Assembly: GCF_000160135.1 (NCBI RefSeq)
Contig: NZ_GG729934.1
Coordinates: 314,499 to 378,498 of the forward strand
Source: Oribacterium sp. oral taxon 078 str. F0262
GTDB taxonomy: Bacteria > Bacillota > Clostridia > Lachnospirales > Lachnospiraceae
Direction: 5' to 3'
DNA: 64,000 nt
Shown here: in pieces, positions 10,077 to 64,000 of the stretch
Layout: each line of letters opens with the position of its first letter
Numbering within the stretch: position 1 is the stretch's first letter
Made by a program: the position numbers and the translations under genes
Notes under the pieces: generated by a model
What the model was told of the DNA's origin: nothing
The model's database searches: none
The model's input: only the letters and a program-made list of their open reading frames with translations

Positions 10077-10345
10077 CACGGGCGCGCCCCGCCGCTTCAC
10101 TGCTCCTGCATAAGCTTTCGGATTGCTCCGCGCTTTCGCGCTCCCGTGCCGACACGGGTGCGCCCCGCCGCTTCACTGCCCCTGCATAAGCTTTCGGATT
10201 GCTCCGCGCTTTCGCGCTCCCGCAATCCTGACAGCTCTTCGGAAATCGCGCTCTTCTCTTCTTTCGAGTGCTTTTTTCCTCAGATCTGTTGCCTCGCCGG
10301 ATGTCGGGACGCTCTCCCGTGCCCGCACGGGCGCGCCCCGCCGCC
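10077..10345. repeat. Two 69-bp direct repeats plus a third partial copy in a 367-base gap
   Basis: Unit 1 (10078-10146) and unit 2 (10154-10222) differ at two positions and start 76 bases apart. Each begins ACGGGNGCGCCCCGCCG and ends GCGCTTTCGCGCTCCCG. A third copy of the first 20 or so bases is at 10326-10345. The units contain inverted repeats such as GCGCTTTCGCGC, and CCGTGCCGACACGG bridges the two units. No gene is seen from 9998 to 10364. The function is unknown; the structure would suit a small non-coding RNA or a mobile palindromic element. Confidence 0.75.
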
Positions 10346-10364
10346 CGGCGAGAGCTTATGCACT

Positions 10365-41773: not shown

Positions 41774-41875
41774 TGACAGATGATAAAAAGTGAAAATCTC
41801 GGGCAGAACGCCCAGAATCAAAGGCTTTTTTTAATCATAGCCGCTCCGACAAAGCTTGTCAAATATAAAATTCCA

Positions 41876-41937
41876 GTGTCATAAGGAGCTGTCCCCCCAT
41901 CGTGCTTGCACGAAGGGGGGACAGCTCCTTATGACAC
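41876..41937. repeat. Long perfect hairpin at the head of the 147-bp array
   Basis: GTGTCATAAGGAGCTGTC plus a run of C (41876-41898) pairs without mismatch with its reverse complement at 41915-41937, a 23-bp stem. After one A-A mismatch the stem continues as TCGTGC-TT-GCACGA (41900-41913). In effect the array's flanking sequence is present here in inverted orientation. Palindromes of this kind are typical of REP-like or miniature mobile elements. Confidence 0.85.
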
Positions 41938-42570
41938 GCCCCCTTATGAGCATGCAGCGGAGGTTTTTCCCGCGGAATGCGAATAAGGGACAGCATGGCG
42001 AGCTCAGCGATGCCATGCGGAATTTTAGAAACAGCATGGCCGAAGCCAATGCTTGCACGAAGGGGGGACAGCTCCTTATGACACCGCCCCCTTATGAGCA
42101 TGCAGCGGAGGTTTTTCCCGCGGAATGCGAATAAGGGACAGCATGGCGAGCTCAGCGATGCCATGCGGAATTTTAGAAACAGCATGGCCGAAGCCAATGC
42201 TTGCACGAAGGGGGGACAGCTCCTTATGACACGCCCCCTTATGAGCATGCAGCGGAGGTTTTTCCCGCGGAATGCGAATAAGGGACAGCATGGCGAGCTC
42301 AGCGATGTCATGCGGAATTTTAGAAACAGCATGGCCGAAGCCAATGCTTGCACGAAGGGGGAGACAGCTCCTTATGACACGCCCTCTTATGAGCATGCAG
42401 CGGGGCTTTTTCCCGCGGAATGCGAATAAGGGACAGCATGGCGAGCTCAGCGATGCCATGCGGAATTTTAGAAACAGCATGGCCGAAGCCAATGCTTGCA
42501 CGAAGGGGGAGGGGGTTCCTTATGACACGCCCCCTTATGAGCATGCAGCGGGGATTTTCCCCCGCACTAA
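41911..42570. repeat. Array of 147-bp structured repeats (four full copies plus a partial)
   Basis: Units start at 41911, 42058, 42206, 42353 and 42501; spacing alternates 147/148 through single-base indels, which breaks any reading frame. Copies are nearly identical. Inside each: GCATGGC (41993-41999) pairs with GCCATGC (42012-42018), and AGCATGGC-CGAA-GCC-A-ATGCT forms a hairpin (42033-42053), which on the minus strand has a C(UUCG)G loop. Each unit begins with the GGGGGGACAGCTCCTTATG arm. There are no unique spacers, so this is not CRISPR. A REP/BIME-like family is the best guess; no RAYT transposase gene is in the window. Confidence 0.85.
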
Positions 42571-49504: not shown

Positions 49505-50104
49505 CTAATACTCCTTTATTCTTTCTTCACAGCTTATTTTGAAAATCATATATTGATAAAACAGCAGAGGAATTAAAAATACAGCCCCCATAGGAAATGC
49601 CATCCACGCCCTGTCAAAGAATCCAAGTAAGAAGAAAAAAGATGACAAAAACATATATGGTGTCTTCAGAGTTTTATAATAGGACTTTTTATCCGCCAAT
49701 GTGGAATATATCTCAAAGGGATTCCCATCATTTTCTTTTTCAACTATTAAGAGTTCCCTGTTAAACGTTGACCAGCTTGCAGAAATCCGGTTCCCCTTTC
49801 CTGCCCACGGCCGCCATTTAAATTTACCAATGCAGTAATCAAGATTCATATTTTTATAAATAGTTCTATATCCGAGATCATTTAGAAAATTGATATATTC
49901 TGAAATCTCAGAGCTTGACTTATTTGAAATAAATTCGATGCAATATAAGTAACGATTCGCATCGCAAGCATCAAATTCATAAAACAAAATTCCAGTATGC
50001 ACGAGACGATATCCTCGAGAAGACATTCGATTTAACCATTTCTCCTGTAAGCTCAACAGCCCTCCGAAAAACGAATGCAACGCTTCTTCATCGTCATCTC
50101 CCAA
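49505..50104 (-). CDS. DUF2812 family membrane protein
   Basis: 199 residues. An N-terminal DUF2812-type soluble region (EKWLNRMSSRGYRLVHTGILFYEF, then CIEFISN) is followed by two C-terminal helices (about 150-190). DUF2812 genes are usually paired with PadR-type regulators, as here; the role is unknown, perhaps sensing or countering membrane stress. Overlaps padR by 11 bases. Confidence 0.8.
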   Translation of the reverse strand: MGDDDEEALHSFFGGLLSLQEKWLNRMSSRGYRLVHTGILFYEFDACDANRYLYCIEFISNKSSSEISEYINFLNDLGYRTIYKNMNLDYCIGKFKWRPWAGKGNRISASWSTFNRELLIVEKENDGNPFEIYSTLADKKSYYKTLKTPYMFLSSFFFLLGFFDRAWMAFPMGAVFLIPLLFYQYMIFKISCEERIKEY

Positions 50105-50411
50105 GTATTTCTCCAGCTAAATACAGCAAACTCTCCAGCCTTTCCAATTCTCTCCGTGCAACTCTTCTTCCTTCGCCTGTGATTATGAATTCTCTTTTCC
50201 TTTCACTTTCCATAGCAAAGGGAGTAATCCATCCCTTCTTTTGTAAAGCATTCAATGCACCATATAGCGTTCCAGCGCCTAATATCAGCCTTCCATCGGT
50301 CTTTTCCTGAATGAACTGCATAATTGCATATCCATGTCTTGGGGTAAAAACCGAGAGAAGAATATAAAAGCTTACTTCTGTTAATGCTCCACCCTTTACG
50401 CTGTCTCTCAA
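50094..50411 (-). CDS. PadR family transcriptional regulator
   Basis: 105 residues from a TTG start at 50411 with AGAGGAATAAAG before it. Winged-helix motifs are YILLSVFTPRHGYAIMQFI and the family hallmark GTLYGALNALQKKGWI. First gene of a three-gene operon; it likely represses its own promoter until an unknown ligand binds. Confidence 0.9.
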   Translation of the reverse strand: MRDSVKGGALTEVSFYILLSVFTPRHGYAIMQFIQEKTDGRLILGAGTLYGALNALQKKGWITPFAMESERKREFIITGEGRRVARRELERLESLLYLAGEILGR

Positions 50412-50638: not shown

Positions 50639-51277
50639 TCAGAGCACGGTCACGGCGAGGTAATAGGCTTCGGGATCGGCGCTGTCTTTCGATGGGGAGA
50701 GCTTTTGGAGGCTTATGGAGCGGGTCCTCCGGCTGCAAAGAATCCGCTTCCCCAGAAATTGAAATTCCGGAAGCTCTTCCTCTGTCAAAAAGCCGCTCCC
50801 TCTCGCTTTCAGATAGCTCTCCTTCAGTACCCAAAGCCTGCTGAAAAGCTCTTCGGGGCAGTCGGAGCTTCTGATCGAAAGAAGCTCCCTTTGGCTGCAC
50901 AGCTGCTCTTCCATTCCGGGCTCTGTCTCCCTCTGTATCCTCTCGATATCAAGCCCCACTCTCCCGGGGGAAAAGACGACGGCCGCATAGCGTCCGGAGT
51001 GGCTTATGTTAAAGTCCATACTTTCCCCGGGAATATAGGGCCTTCCCAGTCGGTCCCGGAAGATCCTGAGCCTTTCCGGAGGGATATCCTGTCTTTTTGA
51101 AAAATACTGCCGCACCATTTGCTCTGAAAAAGCGCTTCTCGCTCGGTCCTCTCTGCGTCGGTATCTTTTGATCCGAAGCCGGCTCTCCGGCGGGAGCTCG
51201 GAGAGGATTTCTGTCTCTTTTTCAAAAATCACTTCTTCAAGCCAAAGCTCCGAATCCCCCAATCTTTTAAAAAGCAC
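50639..51277 (-). CDS. 4'-phosphopantetheinyl transferase (Sfp type)
   Basis: 212 residues from a GTG start at 51277 that overlaps the NRPS stop by one base (TAGTG). Sfp motifs: FNISHSGRY (about 89-97), VGLDIERI (107-114, Mg-binding Asp and Glu) and LWVLKESYLKARGSGF (148-163, catalytic Glu/Lys). It would convert the three carrier proteins of the cluster to their holo form. Last gene of the biosynthetic operon. Confidence 0.93.
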   Translation of the reverse strand: MLFKRLGDSELWLEEVIFEKETEILSELPPESRLRIKRYRRREDRARSAFSEQMVRQYFSKRQDIPPERLRIFRDRLGRPYIPGESMDFNISHSGRYAAVVFSPGRVGLDIERIQRETEPGMEEQLCSQRELLSIRSSDCPEELFSRLWVLKESYLKARGSGFLTEEELPEFQFLGKRILCSRRTRSISLQKLSPSKDSADPEAYYLAVTVL

Positions 51278-54200
51278 TAGCTCTTCCTCTGTCCGGGCTT
51301 TGGCAGAAAATCTACCTTTTCACAGTATGAAAGCATCCTCCCAATGCTCTCCTTGTCCGCTGCCCTCCATCGAAAGCCCAGTTTATCCAGCAGTCTTTCC
51401 GTCCTCTCCGAGGCAAGGTAAAAATATGTGCTCCGGGGGATATCCATGAGCCGGCTGTGGAGGATAAAGTCCGAGACATAGGGTCCAAGCCTTGGATCCT
51501 CCCGCATCTCATAGAGAAAGCGAAGGTAGTCTTCCTCACTCACGGAATGAACCGGGTATCCGAGTTCCCGGAGAATTTCCCCGAGCTCTGCCATGCTGAG
51601 CCGTGAGGAGTTTAAGAGATGATACGTTTCGAAGTGGCTGTGCTCTGAAAGAAGAAGCCGTATAAAGGCATCCGTTACTTGATCGATGAAGGAGAAATCC
51701 GGAAGCCATATCGAGGACTCCGCTGTCCTCCCCATACAGATCATCGCCCGAAGGATTTTGTAAAAGCCATTCGTGTCGATATTGTCCTGGAAGATGCCGC
51801 TCCCGGAATCCGCGATCAGATTGCCAAGCCGGTAGATGCTGATATCCCTTCCCTCCTTCCGCATTCTTTCGATATGCCGCTCCGCCTCCCGCTTCGTACT
51901 CGTATAATAATTGTCGTCCGCCTGTCCGAGATCGCCGTCCTTTTCAGTATAAAAGAAAAATTTCTTCCCTTCGATCAGCCCTTCCGCGACTCCGATAGTG
52001 GAAATATGGTGGATCTCCTTTCTCCTCCCCCTGTCTGAGAGCTCCGCGAGCTTTCGGATAAGCTCCGCATTGATCCCGGAAAAATCTTCATAATGCCCGT
52101 AGTGCCGCACATTCGCAGCCGCATTGATGATGCAGTCCGTTCTCTCTGCAAGAAGCGCATAATCCTCTTCGCAAAGCCCCAGCCGTTCTTTTGTGAGAGA
52201 AGCGAGCACGATATGAAGCCTCCCGGCTTCCTCTCTCGAGGGCTCTGATCCGAAATAATGTCTCCACTTTCGGAAGAGGCGCTCCCGGGCCTCCTCCTCG
52301 TTCCCGTCTCTCATGGAGAGATAGAGCTCCGCTTTACTGTCCGTTAAAAGACGCCTTGCGGTATGAATTCCGAAAAAGCCTGTCCCCCCGGTCAGAAAAA
52401 TTGCCTTATATTTTTTCGGATCCACAGAGAGCTTCTCCGGAAGATTTCGAAGGGAGTCCCGATAGAGCCGTTGTTTTTCCAAAAATTCCGCGTCCGGAGG
52501 ACTGCTCTGCCATTCGAGAACAATCTTTTCGACCTCCGAGAAGCGCTCCCAAAGCTCCTCTTTTTTCTCTGTGATATGCAAAGAGAGCTCCCGGACCGTC
52601 TGATAAAGAAAGAGGTCGTTGATCCGGATCTCAAAGTCTGCGGAAAGCTCAGAGACCAGCCGGATCGCCTGTATGGAGTTTCCGCCAAAATGAAAGAAAT
52701 TGTCCGTGACGCCGATCCTGTCATTTTGCAGGACAGTCCGGAAGGCCTGAAGGATGCGCTCCTCCCTCCTGCTTTCCGGTCCAAGTCCCCGGTCCTCTCC
52801 CTTGCTTTCCCTCGGGTCCGGCAGCTTCCGATCATTGATCTTCCCGTTTCTGCTCACGGGAAAGCGCTCCATAAACAGGATATAGGAGGGGAGCATGTAT
52901 TCCGGAAGCCTTGTAAGGAGATAGCTCCTAAGCTCTTCCTCCGATACCTCTTCCCGCCGGAGGATATAGGCGCAGAGCGCCTTCCCCCCGTCTCCCGATC
53001 GGAGGAGCCGCACGACAGCGCGCTTTACCGCGCTGTTTTCACAAAGAGCAGTCTCGATCTCCTCCACCTCGATCCGAAAGGCCGATATCTTGACCTGCCC
53101 GTCGATCCTGCCCAAGAAGTGGAGTCTCCCGTCCGAGGACCATTTCGCGAGGTCTCCGCTCCGGTAAAGTCTCTCTCTTCTTAGGACCTTACTCCTCAGG
53201 AAGCACTTTCCGTTGAGCTCCGGCCTATTGATATAGCCCTTCGCGAGATTCTCTCCCCCGATCCAGAGCTCTCCCGGGCATCCGATCGGCTGGGGTGCCC
53301 CATATGGATCCACGATGAAGACCTCGGTATTGTCGATCGGCCTTCCGATCGAAAGGTCCTTTTCCTCCTCCGGAGAGAGCTCGATCGCGCTTGTGATGAC
53401 CGTGTTCTCCGTCGGCCCGTAGTTATTGAAAAAGCGGTAGCTCCGCTTCTTCATCCGGCCAAGCGCATCTCCCCCTGTGCAGAGGATCCGCAGAGAATGA
53501 TTCTCAAGCTCCATGAACTGCTCCGCGATCTGTGTCGGCAGGAAGCTGAAGCTGACATGATGCTTCTCATAGTAGCGATTCAGAGCCTCCATATCCAGCC
53601 GGAGCTCCTCCTCTATGAGATGCACCTCCGCTCCTGACGAAAGAAGCGGGAAAAGCTCCCAGACGGAGGCGTCAAATCCGACCCCGGCGTAGCGGGTCCC
53701 TACATCCTTCTCCGTGAGCCCATAATAGCGCCTGTTCCACTCGATGAAGCGAATCAGGGGGCCGTGCTGGATGCAGATCCCCTTCGGCTTTCCCGTCGTG
53801 CCGGAGGTATAGATCACATAGGCCGGGTCCTGGTGGGAGATCCCTTTTCCGGAGAATTTCTCCGGACAGTTTTTTAGGATCCCAAGGCCGTACTGCCTCC
53901 CGAATCTCCGGACCTTTTCCCTCTCTGGCTTTTCCCTGTCCTCCCTCCTCCTTTCCGCTTTTCTCTTATCGATAAAGAGCAGCACATCGTAGCGGTAGCG
54001 GGTCAGCTCATTCTGTATGCTTCCCCTCTTCTCTGAGATCTCCACCGCAGCGATCTCCGGATAATACGCCGGGAGATCCCTGAAATACTCCTTCGCAAAG
54101 AAGAGCTCCTGGGACCAGTCCATTTTCGTCTGATAGCCCTTTCCGCTGTTTTCTTCGGAAAAGCGCCGCAGGGACTCGACCATCTCCTTCTTTGTCCCGG

Positions 54201-55869
54201 CATCCATGACATCGCCGAGGAAGATCACAGAGCGCTCCGCGGAGAGAGAGAGCATCTTTTCCAGGACCGTTCGAAAATACGAATAGCTCCGAAAGCACTG
54301 GATCACGCTGTTCAGTAAAAAGGCGTCAAAGTCCCTGCTCCCGATTTTATCGATCTCGATCGCCTCCACCCTCATAAGCCTGATATTTTTGATCTGCTCC
54401 TCCTCTATCCTCCTTTGATCCTTTTCCAGGATCGATCCGGAAAGGTCTGTGCCCCAGTACTCCCCGACCCTTTCCGAGAGCGGAAACATCGTGAGCCCCG
54501 ATGCACAGCCGATCTCCAGAAGCTTCGCATCCTTCTTTAAGAGCGGAAGCATTTTTTCGAAGACATTGTCCGCATACTCCTTCATCTCCTGCTCCGAGAG
54601 GTACTCTCCCGTATAGCTGCTCTTCCAGCCTCCCCCCTCGATCGCGTCCTTCGCGGAGCTCCCGACATACTCCCAGAGCTCTTGATTTCCCAGCGGGTTC
54701 TCCGAAGAGCTGTCCTCCGATCGAATATCCTCTGCGTCCAGGCAGAGCAGTACCCTAAGACAGGACAACTCCATTTGCAGCCTCTCCAGCGCGGGGAGCT
54801 GCTCCTTTTTCGTCAAAATGACGGAGAGATTGAGATCCTCAATGATGCTGCCGATTCTCTCTAAGGGGAGCTCCGGGTCGATCGGCACATAGGCCGCACC
54901 GGATTTCAGAATCCCCAGAATGGAGGCTGTATTTTCCATGCAGTTTTTCATATAGATCCCGACATATCCGCATCCGCTGCACTGCTCCAAGAGGAAGGAG
55001 GCGATCCTGTCCGATAAAAGATTAAGCTCACGGTAGCTCATGGCTTTTCCGCCCTGCACCAGAGCCCGCTTATCCGGACAGCGTTTGGCAAAGAGGCAAA
55101 AAGCGCTGACTGCATTCACTTCCTTTGGCGCCGGAACTCTCTTCCCCTGAAAGGAGGAAAGGAGCCGTTTCTCCTCCTCGGAGAGAAGGTTCAGCTCGGA
55201 AAGAGTGATGCCCGGATTTTCGGAGACAAGCAGGAAGAGACGGCGAAGCTCCGAGAGGAGATGGCTGATCCCTTCCTCCTCATAGAGATCGGCATTGTAG
55301 TCAGCCTCAATCGAAATGCTCCCGTCCTCCCGTCGGAAAAGAAAGAGGATGTCCGGATAGATTCCGCTCGCCCCTTCCGCATCGTGGAGCCCCTCCATGG
55401 AGAAAATCGTCCTGACCAGGGGCATATGGGTATCGCAGGGAAGGGGAAGCTCCTCCTCCGCGATATCCTGGTGCTTCAGCGCGTTCTGATAGACCTCCGC
55501 AGTCTCTTTCGAAAGCTCCCGGAAACTTTGCTCCGCTCTCATTCTAAGGCGGAGCAGCACTACCCGGTTCTTCCGCCCCATCCCCTGTGCCGAGAGCAGC
55601 AGCGGGACAGCATAGCTGATATCCTTTGAGAAGCTTCGCTTCGATAAGAGGATCGATCCCCCTGTGAGGAGCAGGATAAAAAGGTTCGGCAGCCTTCCCT
55701 TTCCCATTGAAAAAAGCTTTTCTCCGCAGCTTATGGGAAGCTTTGTCTCTGCTCTCCTCCTCGGAGCCCTGCTCTTTACTGTTCTGATATGCTTCTCCGG
55801 AAAGCCGTCCGTCCCCTGATCCTCATCGAGGACAGCCCTCCAGTACGAGAGATTTCTGTTTCCGATCAT
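51277..55869 (-). CDS. NRPS: C-lobe fragment, A domain interrupted by methyltransferase, PCP, terminal reductase
   Basis: 1530 residues. 1-225: only the C-terminal lobe of a condensation domain, no HHxxxDG. 250-345: adenylation motifs A1-A2 (SYRELNLLSDRIA, GAAYVPIDPELPLERI). 400-640: a methyltransferase (SAM motif LEIGCASGL at 451-459; YWGTDLS; NELTRYRYDVLLFID) inserted before motif A3. 680-1015: the rest of the A domain (YVIYTSGTTGKPKG, YGPTENTV, YRSGDLAKW, NGKIND). My hand alignment gives the ten-residue code D-A-W-S-C-G-N-V-I-K, which I cannot match to a known substrate. 1035-1100: PCP, Ser 1065 in FGGNSIQAI. 1155-1530: reductase (TGGTGFFG; YYTSTKREAE) releasing an aldehyde or alcohol. Confidence 0.93.
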   Translation of the reverse strand: MIGNRNLSYWRAVLDEDQGTDGFPEKHIRTVKSRAPRRRAETKLPISCGEKLFSMGKGRLPNLFILLLTGGSILLSKRSFSKDISYAVPLLLSAQGMGRKNRVVLLRLRMRAEQSFRELSKETAEVYQNALKHQDIAEEELPLPCDTHMPLVRTIFSMEGLHDAEGASGIYPDILFLFRREDGSISIEADYNADLYEEEGISHLLSELRRLFLLVSENPGITLSELNLLSEEEKRLLSSFQGKRVPAPKEVNAVSAFCLFAKRCPDKRALVQGGKAMSYRELNLLSDRIASFLLEQCSGCGYVGIYMKNCMENTASILGILKSGAAYVPIDPELPLERIGSIIEDLNLSVILTKKEQLPALERLQMELSCLRVLLCLDAEDIRSEDSSSENPLGNQELWEYVGSSAKDAIEGGGWKSSYTGEYLSEQEMKEYADNVFEKMLPLLKKDAKLLEIGCASGLTMFPLSERVGEYWGTDLSGSILEKDQRRIEEEQIKNIRLMRVEAIEIDKIGSRDFDAFLLNSVIQCFRSYSYFRTVLEKMLSLSAERSVIFLGDVMDAGTKKEMVESLRRFSEENSGKGYQTKMDWSQELFFAKEYFRDLPAYYPEIAAVEISEKRGSIQNELTRYRYDVLLFIDKRKAERRREDREKPEREKVRRFGRQYGLGILKNCPEKFSGKGISHQDPAYVIYTSGTTGKPKGICIQHGPLIRFIEWNRRYYGLTEKDVGTRYAGVGFDASVWELFPLLSSGAEVHLIEEELRLDMEALNRYYEKHHVSFSFLPTQIAEQFMELENHSLRILCTGGDALGRMKKRSYRFFNNYGPTENTVITSAIELSPEEEKDLSIGRPIDNTEVFIVDPYGAPQPIGCPGELWIGGENLAKGYINRPELNGKCFLRSKVLRRERLYRSGDLAKWSSDGRLHFLGRIDGQVKISAFRIEVEEIETALCENSAVKRAVVRLLRSGDGGKALCAYILRREEVSEEELRSYLLTRLPEYMLPSYILFMERFPVSRNGKINDRKLPDPRESKGEDRGLGPESRREERILQAFRTVLQNDRIGVTDNFFHFGGNSIQAIRLVSELSADFEIRINDLFLYQTVRELSLHITEKKEELWERFSEVEKIVLEWQSSPPDAEFLEKQRLYRDSLRNLPEKLSVDPKKYKAIFLTGGTGFFGIHTARRLLTDSKAELYLSMRDGNEEEARERLFRKWRHYFGSEPSREEAGRLHIVLASLTKERLGLCEEDYALLAERTDCIINAAANVRHYGHYEDFSGINAELIRKLAELSDRGRRKEIHHISTIGVAEGLIEGKKFFFYTEKDGDLGQADDNYYTSTKREAERHIERMRKEGRDISIYRLGNLIADSGSGIFQDNIDTNGFYKILRAMICMGRTAESSIWLPDFSFIDQVTDAFIRLLLSEHSHFETYHLLNSSRLSMAELGEILRELGYPVHSVSEEDYLRFLYEMREDPRLGPYVSDFILHSRLMDIPRSTYFYLASERTERLLDKLGFRWRAADKESIGRMLSYCEKVDFLPKPGQRKS

Positions 55870-55881
55870 CCTTCCCCCCGC

Positions 55882-58800
55882 TCAAAAGTCAAAGTCAAGC
55901 CCCGAAAACTCTGCCGCATCCTCCGTAAGCTCTCCGTCCACCCCGCCGTTTCGGGAAATAAGCGAGAAGAGCTCTCCGATCGGAAGCTCTGATCCCTCCG
56001 CAATCTCCCGTACAAGGTCCCGGTAGAGAGCGAAGAAGCCCTCCATGGACTCCCTCAGAAAGAGAGTGCCGGCATAGCGGAGCAGGAAGGAGAGCCCCCC
56101 CTCCTCTTCCGAGGCCTCCATCGTAATATCAAACTTGGTCCTTTTGTCCTCATTTTCCATGGCGGCGGAGAGTCCAGGGAGCGAAAACTCGGGGCGATCC
56201 ATATTCTGGAAGGCAAAGACGGTGTCAAATATAGGATTCCTAAAAGCCTCCCTCTCTTCCTTCAGCTTCTCCACCAAAAGCTCGAAGGGATAATCCTGGT
56301 TTCCGAGGACAGAGAGTAAAAGCCGATGGGTCCTCCGGATGAATTCCGAAAGCTTCTTCTCCCTCTCAATCCTTCCCCGTACCGGCATCACATTCACAAA
56401 CATTCCGACCATCTGCTGCGTTTCTATCGCGGTCCTCCCGCTGATCGGGGTTCCGACAATCACCTCCTCCGAGGCGGTGAAGCAGGAAAGTGCAAGCTGA
56501 AATGCCGCCATCAGGACGGAAAAGAGGCTCAGATCCTTCTCCCTGCAAAGCCTCCTGAGCTTCTCGGCGCTTCCTTTGTCCATCGAAAAGCCGAGCTCCT
56601 CGCTCTTTCTCTCCCCTCCTCTTCTCTCAAAGTCAAGCGGCAGCTCCTCTCTATGGTATCCCTCCATCTTCTCAAGCCAGAAGCGCTCCTGTCGGCTGAG
56701 ATCCAGTTTCCTCTGCCAAAGCGCAAAGTCCTTGTACTGAAGCTCCTGCCGCCCCACCGGCATTCCCTGATAGAGCTTCACGAATTCATCGCTCAGGATG
56801 CGAAGGGAGCTTCCGTCTGCGGCGATATGGTTCATAACGATAAAGGAAAGATACTCCTCCTTCGAAATCTCCAGGAGGGCGACCCGAAGAAGGGGTTCCT
56901 TTCCAAGGTCGAAGGGCCGATTCATGAGCTCTCTGAGCCTTGGGAGGGAAGCCTCTTCCCCTCCCCTGAGCTCGGTGATCGAGAGCTCCTTTTCCTCGTC
57001 CACGGACTGCCGCGCTGCCCCGTCTTCTATATAGAAGCGGCTTCGAAAAATGTCGTGCAGGCGAAAAATCCTTTGAAAGCTTGAGCGGAAGCGTTCGATA
57101 TCGAGCTGCCCCCGGAAGCGAATCGAAAAGGGCATGTTGTAGGAGCTGTCCTCCGGGTCTCTGAGATAGAGAAGGAACATCCGCTGCTGCGCATAGGAGA
57201 GCGGGTAAGAGCTCTGCTTTGGAGCCTTTTCGATATGGTAAAGGGCCCCTCTCTCCTCGGGATCTCCGACATTCTCCTCTACATGTGCGGCCAGCTTTTC
57301 GATCGTGCTGTATTGCAGGATATCCGCCATCGTCATCTGGCTGCCATGGGCTGCATTGATCCGGTTTACGATCCGGTAGGCCGTGATGGAATCCCCTCCC
57401 AGGGCGTAAAAGCTGTCATGGACGGAGAACTCATGAAATCCCATTTCCCGCTGAAAGATGCCTGCAATTTCCCGCTCCATCCTGCTGTAGGAAGCACCTT
57501 CCTCCCTTCCCCTTAAGACAATAGGCTCCATCTCCTCCCCCGGACCTCCCGTCTCCTCCTCTCTCCCGGGCGATTTTCTCAGTTTCTCCTTCGGGAGACG
57601 GATCCAGCAGCGCTCCTTTTCGAAGGGATAGAGCGGAAGCCGCATTCGGTTCTTCCTGCGATGATAATAGATGCTCTCAAAGGAAAAGCTTCGGAATCGG
57701 ACATAGGAAGCGCACAGCTCCTCCATCGTAAGCCCCTCTGCCCGCGGACTGCCCTCCCCCTCTTCCTCCGCCCTTCCAAAGCAGACTCCCTCCGGGAGAT
57801 AGTCCGGTTCATCCAGCAGGCGATAATCATAGATCTCCTCCAGCGTCCTCCAAAGGCTCTCACTGTCAGAGAGCTGGAAGGCGAGGCGATAGTCATAGTG
57901 CGTCCTGTCAAGCTGCATGCTCGTACAGAGTGCCTCCAGCTCTCTATCCTCAAGATCCAGGGCGAGGATCCGGTAGGAGTTGATAAGCTCATACAGCGCC
58001 TCCCTGCTCTTTGCGGAGAGGGGAAAGAGATGCGAGGCTTCGGGAGCGCTCCTCCTCTCCTCCCTCTCATCCTCTCCCTCCTCTTCCCGATGCGCCTCCA
58101 TCACGAGATGACAGTTCGTCCCGCTGAAGCCGAAGGCGCTGACTCCCGCGATCCATCTCCCGTTCCTGGGCTCCCACTCGCAGTACTCCTCCGAGATCCG
58201 AAGCGGGGAATGCTCCAGCCGGATCTCCGGGTTTAAGCGGTGAAAATGTGCGCTCGGGACATAGCATCGATGATAGAGCATCAGCGCGGTCTTTATGACG
58301 CCGACAATGCCCGCGCAGTCATAGAGATGCCCGAGATTCGACTTGACGGAACCGATGCGGCAGAAGTCCTCCTCCTCGGTATCGCAGCGGAAGGCCTGGT
58401 TCAGGGCCTCGATTTCAACCGGATCCCCGAGCCTCGTGCCGGTCCCGTGCGCCTCGATATAGGAGATCTCCTCCGCCCTCACAGCGGCATCCTTCCACGC
58501 CTGCCTGAGCACTCGGGTCTGGGCATTTCCGTTCGGGGCCGTGAGGCCGATGCAGCTTCCATCCTGGTTCACAGCGCTCCCCCGGATCACGGCATAGATC
58601 ATATCGCCGTCCTTCTCCGCCTCGGGGAGGGATTTTAAGAGGATCCCGGCCGCGCCCTCACCAAGCCCTGTTCCGCTCGCATTCTCATCAAAGACCCTGG
58701 TATAGCCGTCCTCTGACTCGATGCCGATGGAGTGCTCTCTCCCGGGAAAGAGCACTGTCCGAACTCCCGCGGCGAGCGCCATACTGCACTCTCCGGAACG

Positions 58801-59406
58801 GATCGCGCGGCAGGCCTGGTGAACTGCGGTGAGAGAGGAAGAGCAGGCAGTATCGATCAGCATCGCCGGTCCGCGAAGGTCCAGAAGATAGGCGATCCTC
58901 CCCGCCATCATAGAGGCCAGACTCCCCGTCGGAGAACTCTCCTCCTGACTTTCATAAACCATGCTGGTATAAGCTCCCCCGTCATAGTCCCCGATATAGC
59001 CGATGAAAAGCCCTGTATCGCTCCCCCGTACCCTCTCCTCAGAAAGCCCCGCATCCTGTATCGTCCTGTAGATCAGCTGTAAAAGGATGCGCTGGTTTGG
59101 GTTCATCAGGGCGGCTTCCCTGGGCGTGATATGGAAGAAACGATAGTCAAAGCTATCGATCTCACAAAGATAATTTCCAAGGCGATAGTCCGCGCGGCCG
59201 AGTCCGGCATAGGCGCGGCAATTATCCGCATCTCTCCTTCTCTTTTCCGGAAATTCCGATACGGAGTCCCGGCCGAGCTTCAGATTATCAAAGAATTCCT
59301 CTGTCCCATCGGCGTTCGGAAGCAGGCAGTCCATCCCGATCACCGCGATATCCTCCGAGTAAAGAGAACGGACCGTCCCCTCATTCCCCTCTGTACAGCT
59401 TCGCAT
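55882..59406 (-). CDS. PKS-NRPS hybrid: AT-less KS, ACP, condensation domain
   Basis: 1174 residues. KS 15-435 has the full triad: Cys 188 in DTACSSSL, His 320 in EAHGTGT, His 360 in SNLGH. The KS-AT linker (458-545) runs almost straight into the post-AT linker YPFEKERCWI (593-602); an AT domain is missing, so malonyl must come from the free-standing AT upstream. No KR, DH, ER or MT is present, so the product stays beta-keto. ACP 640-710 with Ser 673 in LGGDSITA. Condensation domain 735-1150 with NHIAADG (859-865): the catalytic second His is kept, the first is Asn. The start overlaps the AT gene by 26 bases; AGGAGG lies 12 bases upstream. The NRPS gene begins 12 bases downstream. Confidence 0.93.
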   Translation of the reverse strand: MRSCTEGNEGTVRSLYSEDIAVIGMDCLLPNADGTEEFFDNLKLGRDSVSEFPEKRRRDADNCRAYAGLGRADYRLGNYLCEIDSFDYRFFHITPREAALMNPNQRILLQLIYRTIQDAGLSEERVRGSDTGLFIGYIGDYDGGAYTSMVYESQEESSPTGSLASMMAGRIAYLLDLRGPAMLIDTACSSSLTAVHQACRAIRSGECSMALAAGVRTVLFPGREHSIGIESEDGYTRVFDENASGTGLGEGAAGILLKSLPEAEKDGDMIYAVIRGSAVNQDGSCIGLTAPNGNAQTRVLRQAWKDAAVRAEEISYIEAHGTGTRLGDPVEIEALNQAFRCDTEEEDFCRIGSVKSNLGHLYDCAGIVGVIKTALMLYHRCYVPSAHFHRLNPEIRLEHSPLRISEEYCEWEPRNGRWIAGVSAFGFSGTNCHLVMEAHREEEGEDEREERRSAPEASHLFPLSAKSREALYELINSYRILALDLEDRELEALCTSMQLDRTHYDYRLAFQLSDSESLWRTLEEIYDYRLLDEPDYLPEGVCFGRAEEEGEGSPRAEGLTMEELCASYVRFRSFSFESIYYHRRKNRMRLPLYPFEKERCWIRLPKEKLRKSPGREEETGGPGEEMEPIVLRGREEGASYSRMEREIAGIFQREMGFHEFSVHDSFYALGGDSITAYRIVNRINAAHGSQMTMADILQYSTIEKLAAHVEENVGDPEERGALYHIEKAPKQSSYPLSYAQQRMFLLYLRDPEDSSYNMPFSIRFRGQLDIERFRSSFQRIFRLHDIFRSRFYIEDGAARQSVDEEKELSITELRGGEEASLPRLRELMNRPFDLGKEPLLRVALLEISKEEYLSFIVMNHIAADGSSLRILSDEFVKLYQGMPVGRQELQYKDFALWQRKLDLSRQERFWLEKMEGYHREELPLDFERRGGERKSEELGFSMDKGSAEKLRRLCREKDLSLFSVLMAAFQLALSCFTASEEVIVGTPISGRTAIETQQMVGMFVNVMPVRGRIEREKKLSEFIRRTHRLLLSVLGNQDYPFELLVEKLKEEREAFRNPIFDTVFAFQNMDRPEFSLPGLSAAMENEDKRTKFDITMEASEEEGGLSFLLRYAGTLFLRESMEGFFALYRDLVREIAEGSELPIGELFSLISRNGGVDGELTEDAAEFSGLDFDF

Positions 59407-60289
59407 GGCAGTTTGCTTCCTCCTGTCTCAGCATTCCCGATAAAGTTGCCCTGGCTCCGAATTCCACGAACTCGCTCACTCCGGCGCGAAAGAGATAACG
59501 CATACTCTCCCTCCAGTGTACGGGGCTTATGAGCTGCCTCCTTAAGCTCCTCCGGATCTCTGAGAGAGAACGATACGGTCTTCCGCTCACATTGGAAAGG
59601 ATGCTTCCCCGGATCGGATGGAGCCGGGTCCTCTCCAGGCATTCTCCGAGCGCTCCGACCGCCCCCTCCATGAGCCTGCTGTGGAAGGCCCCGCTCACTC
59701 GGAGAAGGATCGGCTCCCCGGCTCCGGAGGCCTCGATCTCCCCGGCCATTTCCCGGATCGCCCCCTCCTCCCCCGAAAGGACGAGCTGCTTTTGACTGTT
59801 CAGGCAGGCAAGATCCAGGCAAAGCCCTCTCCGATAGCGCGCATGCCGGATGCAGGAAAGGAGCTTCTCTCTCTCGGGATTTCGCACCGCCATCATGCTC
59901 CCTCTCGCTTTGTCTGCCGCGCGCTTCATATATGCCGCCCGCTTTACGATAAGATGCAGCGCATCCCGAAAGGAAAGAACGCCGGCGGAGAGCAAAGCGG
60001 AGTATTCTCCCAGACTGTGGCCCGCAAAATAATCCGCATCCCTTCCATGCTCCTCTCTGTAGATGAGAAACCAAAGATAGGAACAAAGGAGGATGGCGGG
60101 CTGAGAGACTGTGGTCTCCTTAAGCTCTTCCTCCGTTCCGTATTTACAGAGCTCAGAAAGGGGAAATCCGCAGATTTCATCCGCCTCCTCAAAATAAGCC
60201 GCGGCGCGGGGGAAGCGTTCCAGGATGGGCAGGGCCATGCCGGCGCACTGAGCCCCCTGCCCTGAAAAAAGAAAGGCCTTTTTGCTCAT
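59381..60289 (-). CDS. Free-standing malonyl-CoA acyltransferase (trans-AT)
   Basis: 302 residues from the ATG at 60289 (MSKKAFLFSGQGAQ), preceded by GAGGAGGAAAA. Catalytic Ser 92 in AGHSLGEYSALL, conserved Arg in KRAAYMKRA, catalytic His in SGAFHSRLM. The AFH motif is the malonyl-type variant. It should load malonyl on the ACP of the AT-less KS protein next to it. A role in primary fatty-acid synthesis (FabD) is less likely from its position inside the operon. Start overlaps the ligase gene stop (ATGA). Confidence 0.92.
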   Translation of the reverse strand: MSKKAFLFSGQGAQCAGMALPILERFPRAAAYFEEADEICGFPLSELCKYGTEEELKETTVSQPAILLCSYLWFLIYREEHGRDADYFAGHSLGEYSALLSAGVLSFRDALHLIVKRAAYMKRAADKARGSMMAVRNPEREKLLSCIRHARYRRGLCLDLACLNSQKQLVLSGEEGAIREMAGEIEASGAGEPILLRVSGAFHSRLMEGAVGALGECLERTRLHPIRGSILSNVSGRPYRSLSEIRRSLRRQLISPVHWRESMRYLFRAGVSEFVEFGARATLSGMLRQEEANCHAKLYRGE

Positions 60290-62697
60290 TTTTCCTCCTC
60301 TTCCCTCTTCCTGCACAAAAGTCCGGACATCCTCACGGCAAAGCTCCGGAGTTCCTCCCTTCCTATGGCCGAGGAAGAGCTCAAAAAGCAGGCTGCCCGT
60401 CCCTCCGAAAGCCGATACTCTGCGCAAAGGTCATAATTCTTCGATAAGCTTAAGTTCGAGCGGTTGAGCTCTGCATCATAGAGAAGGAATCGGAGTCCCC
60501 CTCCGGGAGAGGAGGGTGTCCGAAAGAGCTCTCCTGTATTCATTTCTCCGAGTCTCTCCCCCTTCAAGGAGCAAAGACAGAGGATATCCGCCTCATCCAT
60601 CATCACATGGAAGCTCCCGCCCTCCTCGGGAGAGAGGGAGTGGAGCGCCCCGACAAAGCTCTGGAAAATCTCCTCTTTCCGTCCTTCCCCACTGCATTCT
60701 GCTTCAAAGCGGAAAAATCCGTTCCGGAAGGGCTCTCTCTCCTCTTCTCTCTCCCTCTTAAAGTGAAGGGAGGGAAGAAGCAAGGCCTCCCGGCTGTCCA
60801 GGAAACAGGAGAGCGCGTGGACATTGGGACAGCGGAAGAGATCCGATGGGCGAAGCTCTCTCCCGAATTCCTCCCAGATCCTCGCGCTCAGACGGGCAAG
60901 CTTTACGGAATCGAGTCCGAGCTCCATGAAATTATCGAAGCGGCTCCAGCACCCCCCGCCGCTTTCCTCCATGAACTCCCCAAAGAGGCGCATGAGGGCC
61001 TTTTCCGTCTTGGTCAGATCCTCCTCCAGATCCTCTTTTTCGGAGAGATCCCGCTCCGCCTCATATATCGCGAGTTCCCCTTCCTGCAGCAAACGGACGA
61101 GCTCTGTCCGCTTCCGCTTTCCGCTCTCCGTCTTCGGTATCCTCTCTACCGGCACGATTCCAAAGATTCTTAATCCCGATGTGAGGAGCGCTGCCTCCCT
61201 CGCCCTTTTTGAAAATGAACTGAGCTCCTCCTCCCCGACGCCGCTCACAAAAAGATACACTCTGTCGATATTGTCCCGATCCGGTATCGCGGAGACCGCG
61301 AGATTTTCCGCGGGAAAGCACAGCCTTTTCTCCAGCGCTTCCTCTATGTCGGAGGGATAGAAGTTCTGTCCGTTCACAAAAAGAATCTCCTTGAGTCTCC
61401 CGCTGATATAGAGCCTTCCGCCGTAGAAAAATCCGGCGTCTCCCGTCCTCAGCCATCCGTCCGGAGAAAAGAGCTGCTCCGTGAGCTCCTCTTCCCCAAA
61501 GTAGCCCGAGGTGACATTCTCTCCTCGTATTTCGATCTCCCCCACGCTGCCCTCCGGGAGGACGAGATCCCTTTCCCCGCAGATACGGATCTCACAGCCC
61601 TCTGCGGCGCGCCCTAAATCGACCAGTTTCCTGCCCTCCTCCTTTCCTCCGGAAATCCGCACCTTCCCAAAAAGCGTAAGGCTTTCCTTCGAAAAGCTCT
61701 CAAAGTGAAGTCCGCTTCCCGCCTCCGAGAGCGAGATGAGAAGACTTGCCTCCGCCATTCCATAGGCATTGATGAAGACCTTATCAGAGAGCCCGAAGGG
61801 GCTTAACTCCCGGAGAAAAGCTTCGCAGAGATCGGCGGAGATCGGTTCCGCCCCATTTAAAAGATAGCGAAGGGAAGAGAGATCCCAATCTCCCCTTTCT
61901 CCCGAAGACAGGAGTCCAAGTATCAGCTTATAGGCGAAATTCGGAGCAAGCGTCACCGTTATGGCATGCTCTGTGAGCTTGTCCAGCCAGAGTCCGGGCT
62001 TTCGTATGAAATCCTGCGTCGGCATAAGGCATTGATTTGCCTTTATGAGAATCGGGCTCAGATGCGCTCCGATGAGTCCCATATCGTGGCTGAGGGGAAG
62101 CCAGCTCAGGACGTGATCTCTCTCCGAAAAATCGGCTCCCCGGCTGATCCCGAGGAGATTGCTCAGGATATTCCTATGACTTAAAAGAACCCCCTTCGGC
62201 CTCCCCGTGGAGCCGGAGGAAAACTGGATCATCGCCGCATCCCTCTCGGATAAAGGAGCCTCCCTGCCCCGCCCTCCAAACAGAAGGAGAGCCTCCACAC
62301 TCTGAATCTCCCTCTCCTCTTCCAAAGCTTCAGGGAGGGCTCTTTCCCTCCGGAGGGAGAGCAGGCGCTCCTCGGAGAGAAGGTGTGCCGTCTTTAAGAC
62401 AGCGCTCACGCTTCGGAGCTTCCGCTCCTTCTCCTCATCGAGAGCGGCGGGAAGAGCCGCCGGGAGCATGCCTCCCAGGAGGCAGCCCCAGAAGGCAATC
62501 AGGAAGCGATGGGGGTCCGCGATCTGAAGGATCACCCTGTCTCCGGGCCGATAGCCCCTCTCCTGCATACCTCCCAGGATCTTTTCCGCCTCTCTAAGAA
62601 GCTCCGCATAGCTTGTGAAGCTCTCTTTTCCGGCTTCAATAAAGCGGATTCCCTTCTCCGACTCCGCAGCACTTTTCAGGATATCGATCAGATTCAT
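60286..62697 (-). CDS. Fatty acyl-AMP ligase with carrier protein and C-lobe-like tail
   Basis: 803 residues. 1-540: FAAL/acyl-CoA-synthetase fold with MIQFSSGSTGRPKGVLLSH (156-174), WLPLSHDMGLIG (199-210), YGMAEASLLISL and GWLRTGDAGFFYGGRLYISGR; KEILFVNGQNFYPSDIE follows. FAALs activate fatty acids and pass them to a carrier instead of CoA. 560-635: ACP, Ser 597 in MELGLDSVKLARL. 650-803: a region without strong family identity that looks like a worn condensation C-lobe. Loads the starter acid. The start overlaps the reductase gene stop (ATGA). Confidence 0.9.
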   Translation of the reverse strand: MNLIDILKSAAESEKGIRFIEAGKESFTSYAELLREAEKILGGMQERGYRPGDRVILQIADPHRFLIAFWGCLLGGMLPAALPAALDEEKERKLRSVSAVLKTAHLLSEERLLSLRRERALPEALEEEREIQSVEALLLFGGRGREAPLSERDAAMIQFSSGSTGRPKGVLLSHRNILSNLLGISRGADFSERDHVLSWLPLSHDMGLIGAHLSPILIKANQCLMPTQDFIRKPGLWLDKLTEHAITVTLAPNFAYKLILGLLSSGERGDWDLSSLRYLLNGAEPISADLCEAFLRELSPFGLSDKVFINAYGMAEASLLISLSEAGSGLHFESFSKESLTLFGKVRISGGKEEGRKLVDLGRAAEGCEIRICGERDLVLPEGSVGEIEIRGENVTSGYFGEEELTEQLFSPDGWLRTGDAGFFYGGRLYISGRLKEILFVNGQNFYPSDIEEALEKRLCFPAENLAVSAIPDRDNIDRVYLFVSGVGEEELSSFSKRAREAALLTSGLRIFGIVPVERIPKTESGKRKRTELVRLLQEGELAIYEAERDLSEKEDLEEDLTKTEKALMRLFGEFMEESGGGCWSRFDNFMELGLDSVKLARLSARIWEEFGRELRPSDLFRCPNVHALSCFLDSREALLLPSLHFKREREEEREPFRNGFFRFEAECSGEGRKEEIFQSFVGALHSLSPEEGGSFHVMMDEADILCLCSLKGERLGEMNTGELFRTPSSPGGGLRFLLYDAELNRSNLSLSKNYDLCAEYRLSEGRAACFLSSSSAIGREELRSFAVRMSGLLCRKREEEEK

Positions 62698-63590
62698 TGG
62701 ACCTCTCTCCTCTTCTTAAGGATCCGGTAGAGCTCTCTGTGGAGAAGCTCCATCTCCGCTCTTGCCTTCTCGGCATGTCTGTAAATAAAGCGTTCTCCGC
62801 TCTCAGAGCAGTAGAAGGCCGAGAGCGCCGCCGAGAGCGCAGGCTCCGGGAGATGCAAAAAAAGCTTCATCTCCCCCGGAAGAATTCTGATCCCGCTTTT
62901 CTTTAAAAGCCACAGATTGCTCCGGATCCTGCGGACCGTCCTCTTCATCAGCGCTCTGTTCCTCCCCGCGTCGATGTGATTTCCTCCCCCCTCGTAAATG
63001 GCATCCCCGAGAGGGACGACCATGGCGAGGTGGCAAAGCTGCCAGTCATACATCCTCGGACAGATTGCAAAGGGGATATGGGAGCGGAGAAAGATCCGCT
63101 TCAGCGCATAGATCCGGGCCGTCCTCTCCCCTCCGATCTCTCCGAAGCTCGTCTTCTGGAGAAAGGACGGTGTCAGACCACCATAGAGCACCCCTCCCTC
63201 GATCGAGCCTCCGGCGCCCGGAAAAGCCGGAATCAGCCGCCCCCTCCCGAGGATTTTCTCCCAGCCTTCATAGCCATCCAGATTGTTGATCATGCTCACG
63301 ATATTTTTGCATTCCGAATCGGCGAGCTGCCGGAACGCCTCCTCCGCCCGCTCCCTCCGCACCGTGACGAAGATAAAATCGTAGCTCCCGGCGGAATCCT
63401 TCACGAGGCGAACCGGGCAGCGCAAAGTCCTGTTCCCCTCCCGGTACAAAAGCCCCCTCTTCGAAAGCTCCGAAAGCCTCTGCCCCCTCGCATAGACACT
63501 CACCGGATAGCCCGCAAGAGACAGACTCTTCGCATAGATGCTCCCCACCGCTCCACAGCCGAAAATCAACAACCTTTCCTTATACCGCAT
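62694..63590 (-). CDS. Ketopantoate reductase (PanE/ApbA)-like oxidoreductase
   Basis: 298 residues from the ATG at 63590, with GGGAGGCGCTGTC before it. Rossmann motif IFGCGAVGSIYA (6-17 of this start), VYARGQR after strand 2, MINNLDGYE where PanE has its conserved Asn, and GGVLYGGLTPSFLQ. A helical C-terminal domain follows. As no pantothenate genes are near and it is coupled to the cluster on both sides, a tailoring reduction of the aldehyde, keto or pyrrolinone product is more likely than CoA synthesis. Confidence 0.8.
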   Translation of the reverse strand: MRYKERLLIFGCGAVGSIYAKSLSLAGYPVSVYARGQRLSELSKRGLLYREGNRTLRCPVRLVKDSAGSYDFIFVTVRRERAEEAFRQLADSECKNIVSMINNLDGYEGWEKILGRGRLIPAFPGAGGSIEGGVLYGGLTPSFLQKTSFGEIGGERTARIYALKRIFLRSHIPFAICPRMYDWQLCHLAMVVPLGDAIYEGGGNHIDAGRNRALMKRTVRRIRSNLWLLKKSGIRILPGEMKLFLHLPEPALSAALSAFYCSESGERFIYRHAEKARAEMELLHRELYRILKKRREVQ

Positions 63591-64000
63591 GACAGCGCCT
63601 CCCATCGGAAAGCCCCTCCAGATCCGCATCGCGGATCACAAGCTCCCCCTCGGAAAGTCCTTCCTTTATCACATATACGGTATTGCTCTTGTAGCTCACA
63701 TTGACCTCTGTCTTAACCGCCCGATTGCCGATCAGGCGGAATACGAAATCCCTGCCGTCGCTCCGAAAGACCGCGGAGCCCGGGACAGACAGAACCTCCT
63801 TCTCCCGGTAGATCGTAAACTCCAGATCCACGTCACTCCCGGGCTTTAAGGCCGGTCCCTCCTCCAGCTCGACGACGAGCTTCACCTTGTATTCCTTCAG
63901 TCCGAGCGCGGAGGTGGAGGACTCCGCAAAGCCGAAGATCTCAGAAATCACAGCTTTGCAGGACTCATCCTTTCCCTGAAGCTTCTGCGTGAGCTTCACT
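63580..64000 (-). CDS. Efflux transporter periplasmic adaptor (HlyD/MacA type), N-terminus off window
   Basis: About 140 C-terminal residues are visible; the frame stays open to the right edge. YKVKLVVELEEGPALKPGSD and VLSVPGSAVFRSDGRDFVF are the beta-barrel and membrane-proximal motifs of membrane fusion proteins, ending with VSYKSNTVYVIKEGLSEGELVI. It would couple an ABC or RND pump for export of the product. Overlaps the reductase gene by 11 bases, so it belongs to the operon. The internal Met at 63999 is not the true start. Confidence 0.8.
   Translation of the reverse strand, partial: VKLTQKLQGKDESCKAVISEIFGFAESSTSALGLKEYKVKLVVELEEGPALKPGSDVDLEFTIYREKEVLSVPGSAVFRSDGRDFVFRLIGNRAVKTEVNVSYKSNTVYVIKEGLSEGELVIRDADLEGLSDGRRCHAV

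Follow-up and report, generated by a model that had tools for sequence, protein, structure and literature searches.

A compact hybrid polyketide-peptide operon in Oribacterium proposed to make a secreted N-methyl acyl-gamma-lactam

We analysed a stretch of 64,000 nucleotides (the window) from Oribacterium sp. oral taxon 078 str. F0262 (contig NZ_GG729934.1, positions 314,499 to 378,498; assembly of 2.68 Mb, 97.36% complete), which carries at its end, on the minus strand, a hybrid polyketide synthase-nonribosomal peptide synthetase (PKS-NRPS) operon. The reading that we favour, by a modest balance of probability, is that this operon is a compact assembly line for a secreted N-methyl acyl-gamma-lactam. 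An original prediction, made from the nucleotide sequence alone, had described seven co-oriented genes that nearly all overlap or lie within 12 bases of each other, and this layout was borne out: the genes overlap or nearly abut, and gaps of -4, -4, -26, +12 and -1 bases separate the six that lie wholly inside the window. The count of seven holds for the window, but the next part of the contig extends the operon to nine genes (G000:C11:365137-382432), since an FtsX permease and an ABC ATPase lie upstream, past the window edge. The genes and the domains of the NRPS subunit are as follows.

50639..51277, minus strand: Sfp-type 4'-phosphopantetheinyl transferase (PPTase), 212 aa; PF01648, 52.1 bits; GLDIE and KESYLK motifs.
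51277..55869, minus strand: NRPS subunit, 1530 aa, with a half condensation domain (C*), an adenylation (A) domain interrupted by a methyltransferase (MT), a peptidyl carrier protein (PCP) and a reductase (R), or C*-A(MT)-PCP-R; by Pfam and by proteins of like architecture in genomes G1508 and G1581.
51280..52449, minus strand: terminal thioester reductase (R); PF07993, 133.5 bits; TGGTGFFG and YxxxK.
52540..52794, minus strand: PCP; PF00550, 42.9 bits; GGNS.
52825..53904, minus strand: A domain, core and C-terminal part, with pocket code DAWFCGNVI.
53920..54594, minus strand: MT, inserted between A2 and A3; by its match to 5wmm_A and by relatives with the same insertion.
54595..55143, minus strand: A domain, first part, including A2; by Pfam.
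55144..55869, minus strand: C*, the carboxy-terminal lobe of a condensation domain at the start of the subunit; positions 194-455 of the 456 of the PF00668 profile.
55882..59406, minus strand: subunit with ketosynthase (KS), acyl carrier protein (ACP) and condensation (C) domains, KS-ACP-C, 1174 aa; by Pfam at E 1e-3 (KS, PP-binding and Condensation) and by motifs.
59381..60289, minus strand: free-standing malonyl-type acyltransferase (AT), 302 aa; PF00698 (Acyl_transf_1); GHSLG and GAFHS.
60286..62697, minus strand: fatty acyl-AMP ligase (FAAL) fused to an ACP, FAAL-ACP, 803 aa; by Pfam (AMP-binding and PP-binding) and PDB matches.
62694..63629, minus strand: Rossmann protein resembling ketopantoate reductase (KPR-like), 311 aa; PF02558 (ApbA), 52.4 bits.
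63580..64000, minus strand: HlyD/RND-type adaptor, incomplete in the window; 472 aa when whole (L003:14078-15496).
L003:15400-17745: FtsX permease, after the adaptor.
L003:17746-18432: ABC ATPase, after the FtsX permease.

The domains named in the original prediction are present. Pfam, with a domain threshold of E 1e-3, recovered them in the six whole genes; the adaptor, for which the part within the window gave no Pfam match, passed the cut-off of RND_mfp once it was read whole (117.9 vs 94.9 bits). The seven frames examined (FAAL, AT, KS-ACP-C, NRPS, PPTase, ABC and FtsX) contain no internal stop, and the catalytic motifs, identified from knowledge of the families, are intact. Most of the proteins score under the curated NCBIfam cut-offs, as would be expected of divergent members; this was the case for the FAAL with the fatty acyl-AMP ligase model NF006624 (325 bits, cut-off 600), for the AT with the fabD model TIGR00128 (239.8 bits, cut-off 260.9) and for the R domain with TIGR01746 (161.1 bits, cut-off 213.35). 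The set has the make-up of a complete minimal line, as had been proposed, with one fatty starter, one malonyl extension supplied by a free-standing AT, one amino acid and a reductive release. For the AT gene, a start at the TTG at 60427 was rejected; the ATG at 60289 is the likely start and gives the 302 aa listed.

The core of the operon is conserved. The order ABC-FtsX, FAAL-ACP, AT, KS-ACP-C, C*-A(MT)-PCP-R is shared with two genomes from another class of the phylum, G1508 and G1581. In G1508 (L165) the PPTase gene lies on the opposite strand; in G1581 (L187) the genes between ABC and R, both included, are likewise in this order, and no PPTase gene was found in the stretches read. The NRPS of the operon is 37% identical to those of G1508 and G1581 (over 1505 and 1512 aa), and substitution rates between the latter two genomes (dN 0.14-0.21 and dS 1.2-1.5, five genes) fit purifying selection. 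With the G1508 NRPS as query (1e-200), 13 of the 96 genomes of its genus gave a match, which was full length only in G1508 itself and in G1581. Their clusters differ at the periphery: the FtsX proteins show 20-21% identity to that of the operon, no HlyD adaptor gene was found in the stretches read, and the NRPS gene is followed by a cupin-like gene and has an alpha/beta-hydrolase-like gene in its vicinity (both identified by eye). The claim that no described cluster has this domain order holds in part. No characterised cluster with the same order was found among the papers listed, which excluded MIBiG and most subscription papers, but the core order is not unique, as it recurs in G1508 and G1581. 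The gene set is real, conserved and, as far as the literature was searched, uncharacterised; its parts are known and its release chemistry has precedent.

The proteins at the start of the line point to a fatty acid that is extended once. FAAL-ACP matched in PDB a fatty acyl-adenylate ligase (3pbk_A, E 8.3e-64) and McyG (4r0m_B, E 7.4e-80). The motifs GHSLG and GAFHS of the AT are intact; GAFHS is the malonyl-type motif, and the enzyme may prefer malonyl, as read from this motif and the FabD-like score only. The term 'trans-AT', which had been applied to the cluster, is appropriate only insofar as the AT is discrete and FabD-like. In the KS-ACP-C protein, the KS motifs (TACSS, HGTGT and NLGH) and that of the ACP (LGGDS) are intact, and the C domain reads NHIAADG, the second His being retained and the first replaced by Asn. 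Pfam (E 1e-3) detected in this protein no ketoreductase, dehydratase or enoylreductase domain, and no aminotransferase domain after the KS. The latter finding means that this is not an iturin-type cluster and, taken with the former, that the chain should exit the KS module as a beta-ketoacyl thioester, to judge from the domain content. In a KS tree, the operon KS falls in a clade with those of G1508, G1581, G481 and G1544 (support 95/90). Next to this clade are two KSs (L137 and L138) of lines assigned by layout to the FAAL-ACP-KS type, with a free AT just upstream, in a seven-row clade of moderate support (89/94). In mycosubtilin synthesis, free fatty acids are activated by MycA, and malonyl is brought in by FenF (PMC3039948); the FAAL-ACP, the discrete AT and the KS of the operon match this initiation logic.

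The second subunit would add the amino acid. Its Pfam order is a partial Condensation, AMP-binding with the inserted methyltransferase, PP-binding and NAD_binding_4, and the A core motifs, the GGNS of the PCP and motif I of the MT are all intact. The A domains of G1508 and G1581 have the pocket code DAWFLGNVV, which is a Leu code (table 2 of PMC7253712), and that of the operon reads as leucine-like. A comparison of the MT with PDB sequences gave a sole match at 1e-4, with 5wmm_A (E 3e-23). We take 5wmm to be the N-methylating interrupted A domain of TioS. Four relatives with the same MT insertion have an A2-A3 gap of 341-344 residues. Since a Leu pocket provides no side-chain heteroatom to methylate, N-methylation is favoured: an insertion between A2 and A3 is not by itself proof of it, but together with a Leu pocket it makes N-methylation the likelier outcome. 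The amino acid is likely to be N-methyl-leucine.

The same subunit starts with C*, which matched the condensation domain 8z0q_C (E 2.8e-05). No HHxxxDG-type motif was found in a search across the NRPS protein. A structure model of C* of moderate confidence (mean pLDDT 67) was matched by Foldseek to condensation domains with a probability of 1.00 and an rmsd of 5.6-14 Å among the matches listed. We rejected the idea that C* is a frameshift or a lone degenerate remnant, because half domains recur at boundaries between subunits that end in C and subunits that start with A. By BLAST (E 1e-3), C* was present at 9 of 10 such boundaries, this cluster included, in a sample biased by the choice of loci for KS or FAAL similarity and by several close relatives; at the tenth (L096_4709), a 264-residue N-terminal stretch gave no C* match. 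Four further boundaries follow a KS-ACP-C protein; C* was found at three (L165, L173 and L187), and at the fourth (L168) the 277 residues ahead of the A domain gave no match. L169, where a C-ending protein and the next one, which starts with A and has no C*, lie about 2 kb apart, was kept outside the boundary count. In the same class, A domains of the L086, L090, L091, L092, L095, L096 and L140 NRPSs that come after a C domain on a separate subunit begin with C*, often accompanied by an A2-A3 methyltransferase. A truncated C* has already been described in ThdA (PMC7253712), so C* is not new; a scaffold or docking role for it is our guess.

The pathway that we infer from these parts would run as follows. 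The FAAL would adenylate a free fatty acid and load it onto the ACP to which it is fused, the free-standing AT would put malonyl on the ACP of KS-ACP-C, and the KS would form a beta-ketoacyl thioester, the keto group of which would not be reduced within the line. The A domain would charge the PCP with leucine and the inserted MT would N-methylate it, C* probably serving the A domain as a scaffold or docking site, and the amide would be made by the complete C domain that KS-ACP-C, the upstream subunit, carries. The R domain would then free the chain by a two-electron reduction, as beta-ketoacyl-N-methyl-leucinal. Attack of the active methylene on the molecule's own aldehyde and loss of water would yield 1-methyl-3-acyl-5-isobutyl-pyrrolin-2-one, possibly reduced to the pyrrolidone, and the product would be exported through the ABC-FtsX-HlyD system.

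Ring closure to a 3-acyl pyrrolinone is expected because an unreduced beta-keto amide would stand beside the aldehyde, and closures of this type have precedents. In the malleicyprol system, work with the reconstituted BurF R domain in vitro allowed the aldehyde to be trapped with substrate mimics, and biomimetic synthesis backs a closure of Knoevenagel type that gives the butenolide; the authors liken this closure to pyrrolinone formation in fungal cytochalasins (PMC12304814). Labelled feeding supports the aldol closure to a five-membered lactam proposed to follow R release of mutanoclumpin (PMC12403116), and mutanobactin is likewise described as released by an R domain and closed by aldol addition (PMC8210680). 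The operon shares features of the mutanoclumpin ending, namely an unreduced ketide directly ahead of the last amino-acid module and a terminal R domain with NAD(P)H and YxxxK motifs. As these elements are combined with an N-methyltransferase and no further module follows, 1-methyl-3-acyl-5-isobutyl-pyrrolin-2-one is our best guess for the product. The lipopeptide aldehyde of the original prediction, taken as a stable product, is not, given that the beta-keto amide and the aldehyde would be set for ring closure as in the mutanoclumpin and malleicyprol systems (PMC12403116, PMC12304814); the free aldehyde is probably an intermediate rather than the end product.

Several observations weigh against this interpretation. 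The cyclisation step is argued from precedents, the KPR-like gene has no step in the proposed pathway, and the R-domain tree does not resolve the branches around the R domain of the operon. The position of the operon KS beside those of G481 and G1544 is weakly supported (85/59), and its branch is long (0.99 vs a median of 0.39). FAAL, AT, KS-ACP-C and NRPS are just 35-39% identical to the G1508 and G1581 proteins, so the product of these two genomes need not be the same. The pocket code DAWFCGNVI differs from the Leu code at 2 of 9 positions. Furthermore, the relatives of the MT are found in A domains of more than one kind. A close one (48% identity), in L095, sits in an A domain reading DFWNIGMVH, which we take to be a Thr-like code, and distant ones (32-35%; L091 and L092_14147) sit in A domains reading DLYDFSLVW, presumably a Cys-like code; O- or S-methylation is possible in such domains.

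We considered the possibility that the line ends with the linear aldehyde, beta-ketoacyl-N-methyl-leucinal, or a hydrate of it, which would be secreted and inhibit proteases as the dipeptide aldehydes of gut Clostridia do. The mechanism of the R family does yield an aldehyde, and leucinal ends are classic protease-inhibitor warheads. Moreover, cathepsin-inhibiting dipeptide aldehydes have been reported as products of Lachnospiraceae NRPSs (PMC10794557). Yet, the acidic methylene would be placed to attack the aldehyde and close a five-membered ring, for which PMC12304814 and PMC12403116 give precedents, and the KS extension would be superfluous in a simple aldehyde inhibitor. We therefore regard a linear end product as unlikely, though it is the alternative that fares best.

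Somewhat more doubtful is a double reduction, in which the R domain would reduce twice to give acyl-N-methyl-leucinol, or the lactam would be further reduced. Some terminal reductases produce alcohols, and extra reductions by an R domain have been proposed in PMC12403116. Rapid cyclisation of the beta-keto chain would, however, compete with a second reduction. The KPR-like protein, which retains the GxGxxG nucleotide fold, could take part in such a reaction, but it has a His where a canonical-looking paralogue (L143) has the Lys of WDKLFIN, presumably the catalytic residue, and the G1508 and G1581 clusters showed no KPR-like gene in the stretches read. The protein scored 52.5 bits with the PanE model TIGR00745 (cut-off 141.35); on account of this score and of the Lys-to-His replacement, its identity as ketopantoate reductase (PanE) was rejected, and the 'tailoring reductase' of the original prediction is better described as a divergent KPR-like protein. 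One possibility is that it saturates the lactam ring. A KPR-like protein is also encoded in the Niallia taxi cluster described below. It is 26% identical to that of the operon, and a different paralogue of this genome, L146, resembles it more closely (130 vs 83 bits); the two cluster proteins may thus have separate roles. A single-sequence structure model of the KPR-like protein (mean pLDDT 34.7) was useless and was not used.

Another alternative, compatible with the other readings and in our judgement improbable, is that the inserted MT is silent or does not N-methylate, the lactam being N-H or methylated elsewhere. MTs of 44-50% identity to that of the operon span the codes DAWTIAGVC (three loci), DFWNIGMVH (one) and Leu (two). 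The three with DAWTIAGVC, presumably a Phe-like code, are close relatives (46-50% identity), two of the three loci being near-identical orthologues. A further distant relative occurs at L140, beside L091 and L092 in the group of 32-35% identity, and the presumed Cys-like pockets of distant relatives are in keeping with a methylation other than on nitrogen. Enzymes with an A2-A3 insertion include the S-methylating TioN and MarQ, but also the N-methylating TtcC and TtmB (table 2 of PMC11355689). The match to 5wmm and the lack of a side-chain heteroatom in a Leu pocket both argue for N-methylation. Finally, silence or decay of the cluster as a relic is very improbable: the search of 16 congeneric genomes did not find it in any, but its frames are open, its motifs are intact and its GC content (0.558) is close to that of positions 1-50000 of the window (0.552), a composition that also gives no support to a recent import.

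Comparison with known systems indicates which parts of the proposed acyl-lactam line are familiar. Gut dipeptide-aldehyde and aureusimine NRPSs have two amino-acid modules and no FAAL or KS. The operon has one amino-acid A domain, unlike the dipeptide-aldehyde NRPSs with their two C-joined A-T modules, and the ring of aureusimine is a pyrazinone. What these systems share with the operon is a terminal R domain giving an aldehyde that may cyclise (PMC8210680, PMC10794557). The start of the mycosubtilin and iturin lines has the same free AT, FAAL-ACP, KS and ACP, but an aminotransferase turns the beta-keto group to a beta-amine and a long NRPS follows (PMC3039948). The mutanoclumpin line (mcg, from oral streptococci) has in common with the operon a FAAL start, a ketide before the last amino acid, a terminal R domain and an aldehyde; it is longer, with Phe, Glu and, as last residue, Ser, and the part of its description considered here mentions no N-methyltransferase inserted in an A domain (PMC12403116). 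The terminal module of malleicyprol BurF, compared from the literature alone, shares the beta-ketoacyl chain, the C domain and R release, and differs by forming an ester instead of an amide, by a NEX domain where the operon has an A domain, and by a second polyketide chain (PMC12304814).

A cluster of Niallia taxi (NZ_CP102590.1, L056:9286-24377) shares FAAL-ACP, AT, KS-ACP-C, carrier, R, KPR-like protein and PPTase with the operon. In contrast, an FkbH domain replaces the A domain, the parts from KS to R are joined in one protein of 2338 aa, and there is an additional type II thioesterase-like gene. The FkbH domain was named by eye, and by BLAST is 37-52% identical to domains that occupy the corresponding position in other assembly lines. 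BurF of the malleicyprol system has at this place only a related NEX piece (PMC12304814). It is probable that the Niallia line forms an ester, and so an acyl-butenolide, the lactone counterpart, rather than a lactam. The KS-to-R protein was matched at 1e-200 in 24 of 398 genomes of the class of G1095, and 12 places from 11 of the 24 genomes were compared; L165 of G1508 and L173 of G1276 are among them. Among 72,556 plasmid records, the Niallia megaplasmid was the top-ranked relative both of KS-ACP-C and of FAAL; 51 records have one place that covers at least 80% of KS-ACP-C, of which the Niallia record was the one examined. With the NRPS as query, one plasmid record, from Bradyrhizobium, covered at least 80% of the query (30% identity).

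Closer to the host, the KS-ACP-C protein was found in none of the 16 other congeneric genomes; 15 match its KS part only or its ACP-C part only, and one has no match. At 1e-60, 28 of 391 genomes of the class match, this one included. Outside this genome, ten places in eight class genomes cover about the whole of KS-ACP-C. Four of them (G423, G510, G550 and G670) have C*-A(MT); no R domain was detected in wider stretches around the ten, several of which end at their own or a contig edge. At 1e-130, 5 of 398 genomes of the phylum match, this one included, and the other four cover only the KS part (up to the ACP). FAAL was matched at 1e-40 in 16 of 397 family genomes, again including this one, and no same-order cluster was found at 12 FAAL places in 10 family genomes, a comparison that leaves G789, G737, G021, G704 and G103 outside. 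Because FabD proteins match, little was learned from the AT search, which hit 241 of the 299 family genomes, with 4.3e-50 as the best E from any genome but this one; of its places, G166:C15 was the one read as a wide stretch (L142). A Seinonella peptonophila locus, the sole one from a contig scan, has ordinary NRPS modules and was rejected as not this cluster. Two other arrangements were seen: in G166, of the same family, L142:2733-17169 encodes a free AT together with two larger proteins, one of the KS-ACP-C type (1716 aa) and one with A and PCP that matches C* weakly, with no R domain seen in that stretch; in G1276, L173:115-10897 encodes a tandem-AT protein, a C*-A-PCP-R protein and a KS-ACP-C protein, this terminal pair being without MT.

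As regards the surroundings of the operon, a PadR regulator and a DUF2812 protein flank it on the PPTase side, their genes overlapping each other just downstream of the cluster (window 49505-50411); the pair may regulate the exporter operon or be independent of the cluster. A condensation-domain profile found no NRPS outside the operon in this genome, with three matches, of which two are inside the operon and one is under the cut-off, and PF01648 has one further match elsewhere in the genome besides the operon PPTase. The window also contains four matches to the Clostridiales-1 RNA (RF01699), at 10186-10359, 41868-42025, 42026-42175 and 42315-42468; the last three are clustered at 41.9-42.5 kb, and two of these barely exceed the gathering score.

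If the proposed pathway is correct, five or six genes would be enough for an end-to-end test of the conversion of a PKS-NRPS aldehyde to an acyl-lactam. The line has neither the long chain of mutanoclumpin nor the second chain of malleicyprol, it is small enough for heterologous expression, and the mass of its product can be predicted. For C8, C10 and C12 starters, the pyrrolinone series C(n+9)H(2n+13)NO2 would have [M+H]+ values of 280.2271, 308.2584 and 336.2897, and the aldehyde series values of 298.2377, 326.2690 and 354.3003. Nature supplies versions of the line with either loading domain, A or FkbH, which offer a ready comparison of lactam and lactone formation. We would tentatively suggest that the operon is among the smallest lines for an N-methyl acyl-gamma-lactam, the nitrogen counterpart of acyl-butenolides and A-factor-like molecules, and that it makes a small exported signal or membrane-active lipid found in two classes of the phylum; whether the ring contains N or O could then be set by the loading domain, A or FkbH, while FAAL, AT, KS-ACP-C and R remain unchanged. 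Such a molecule would be a further candidate, a small acyl-lactam, among the lipids of gut-type Clostridia, the chemistry of which is little known.

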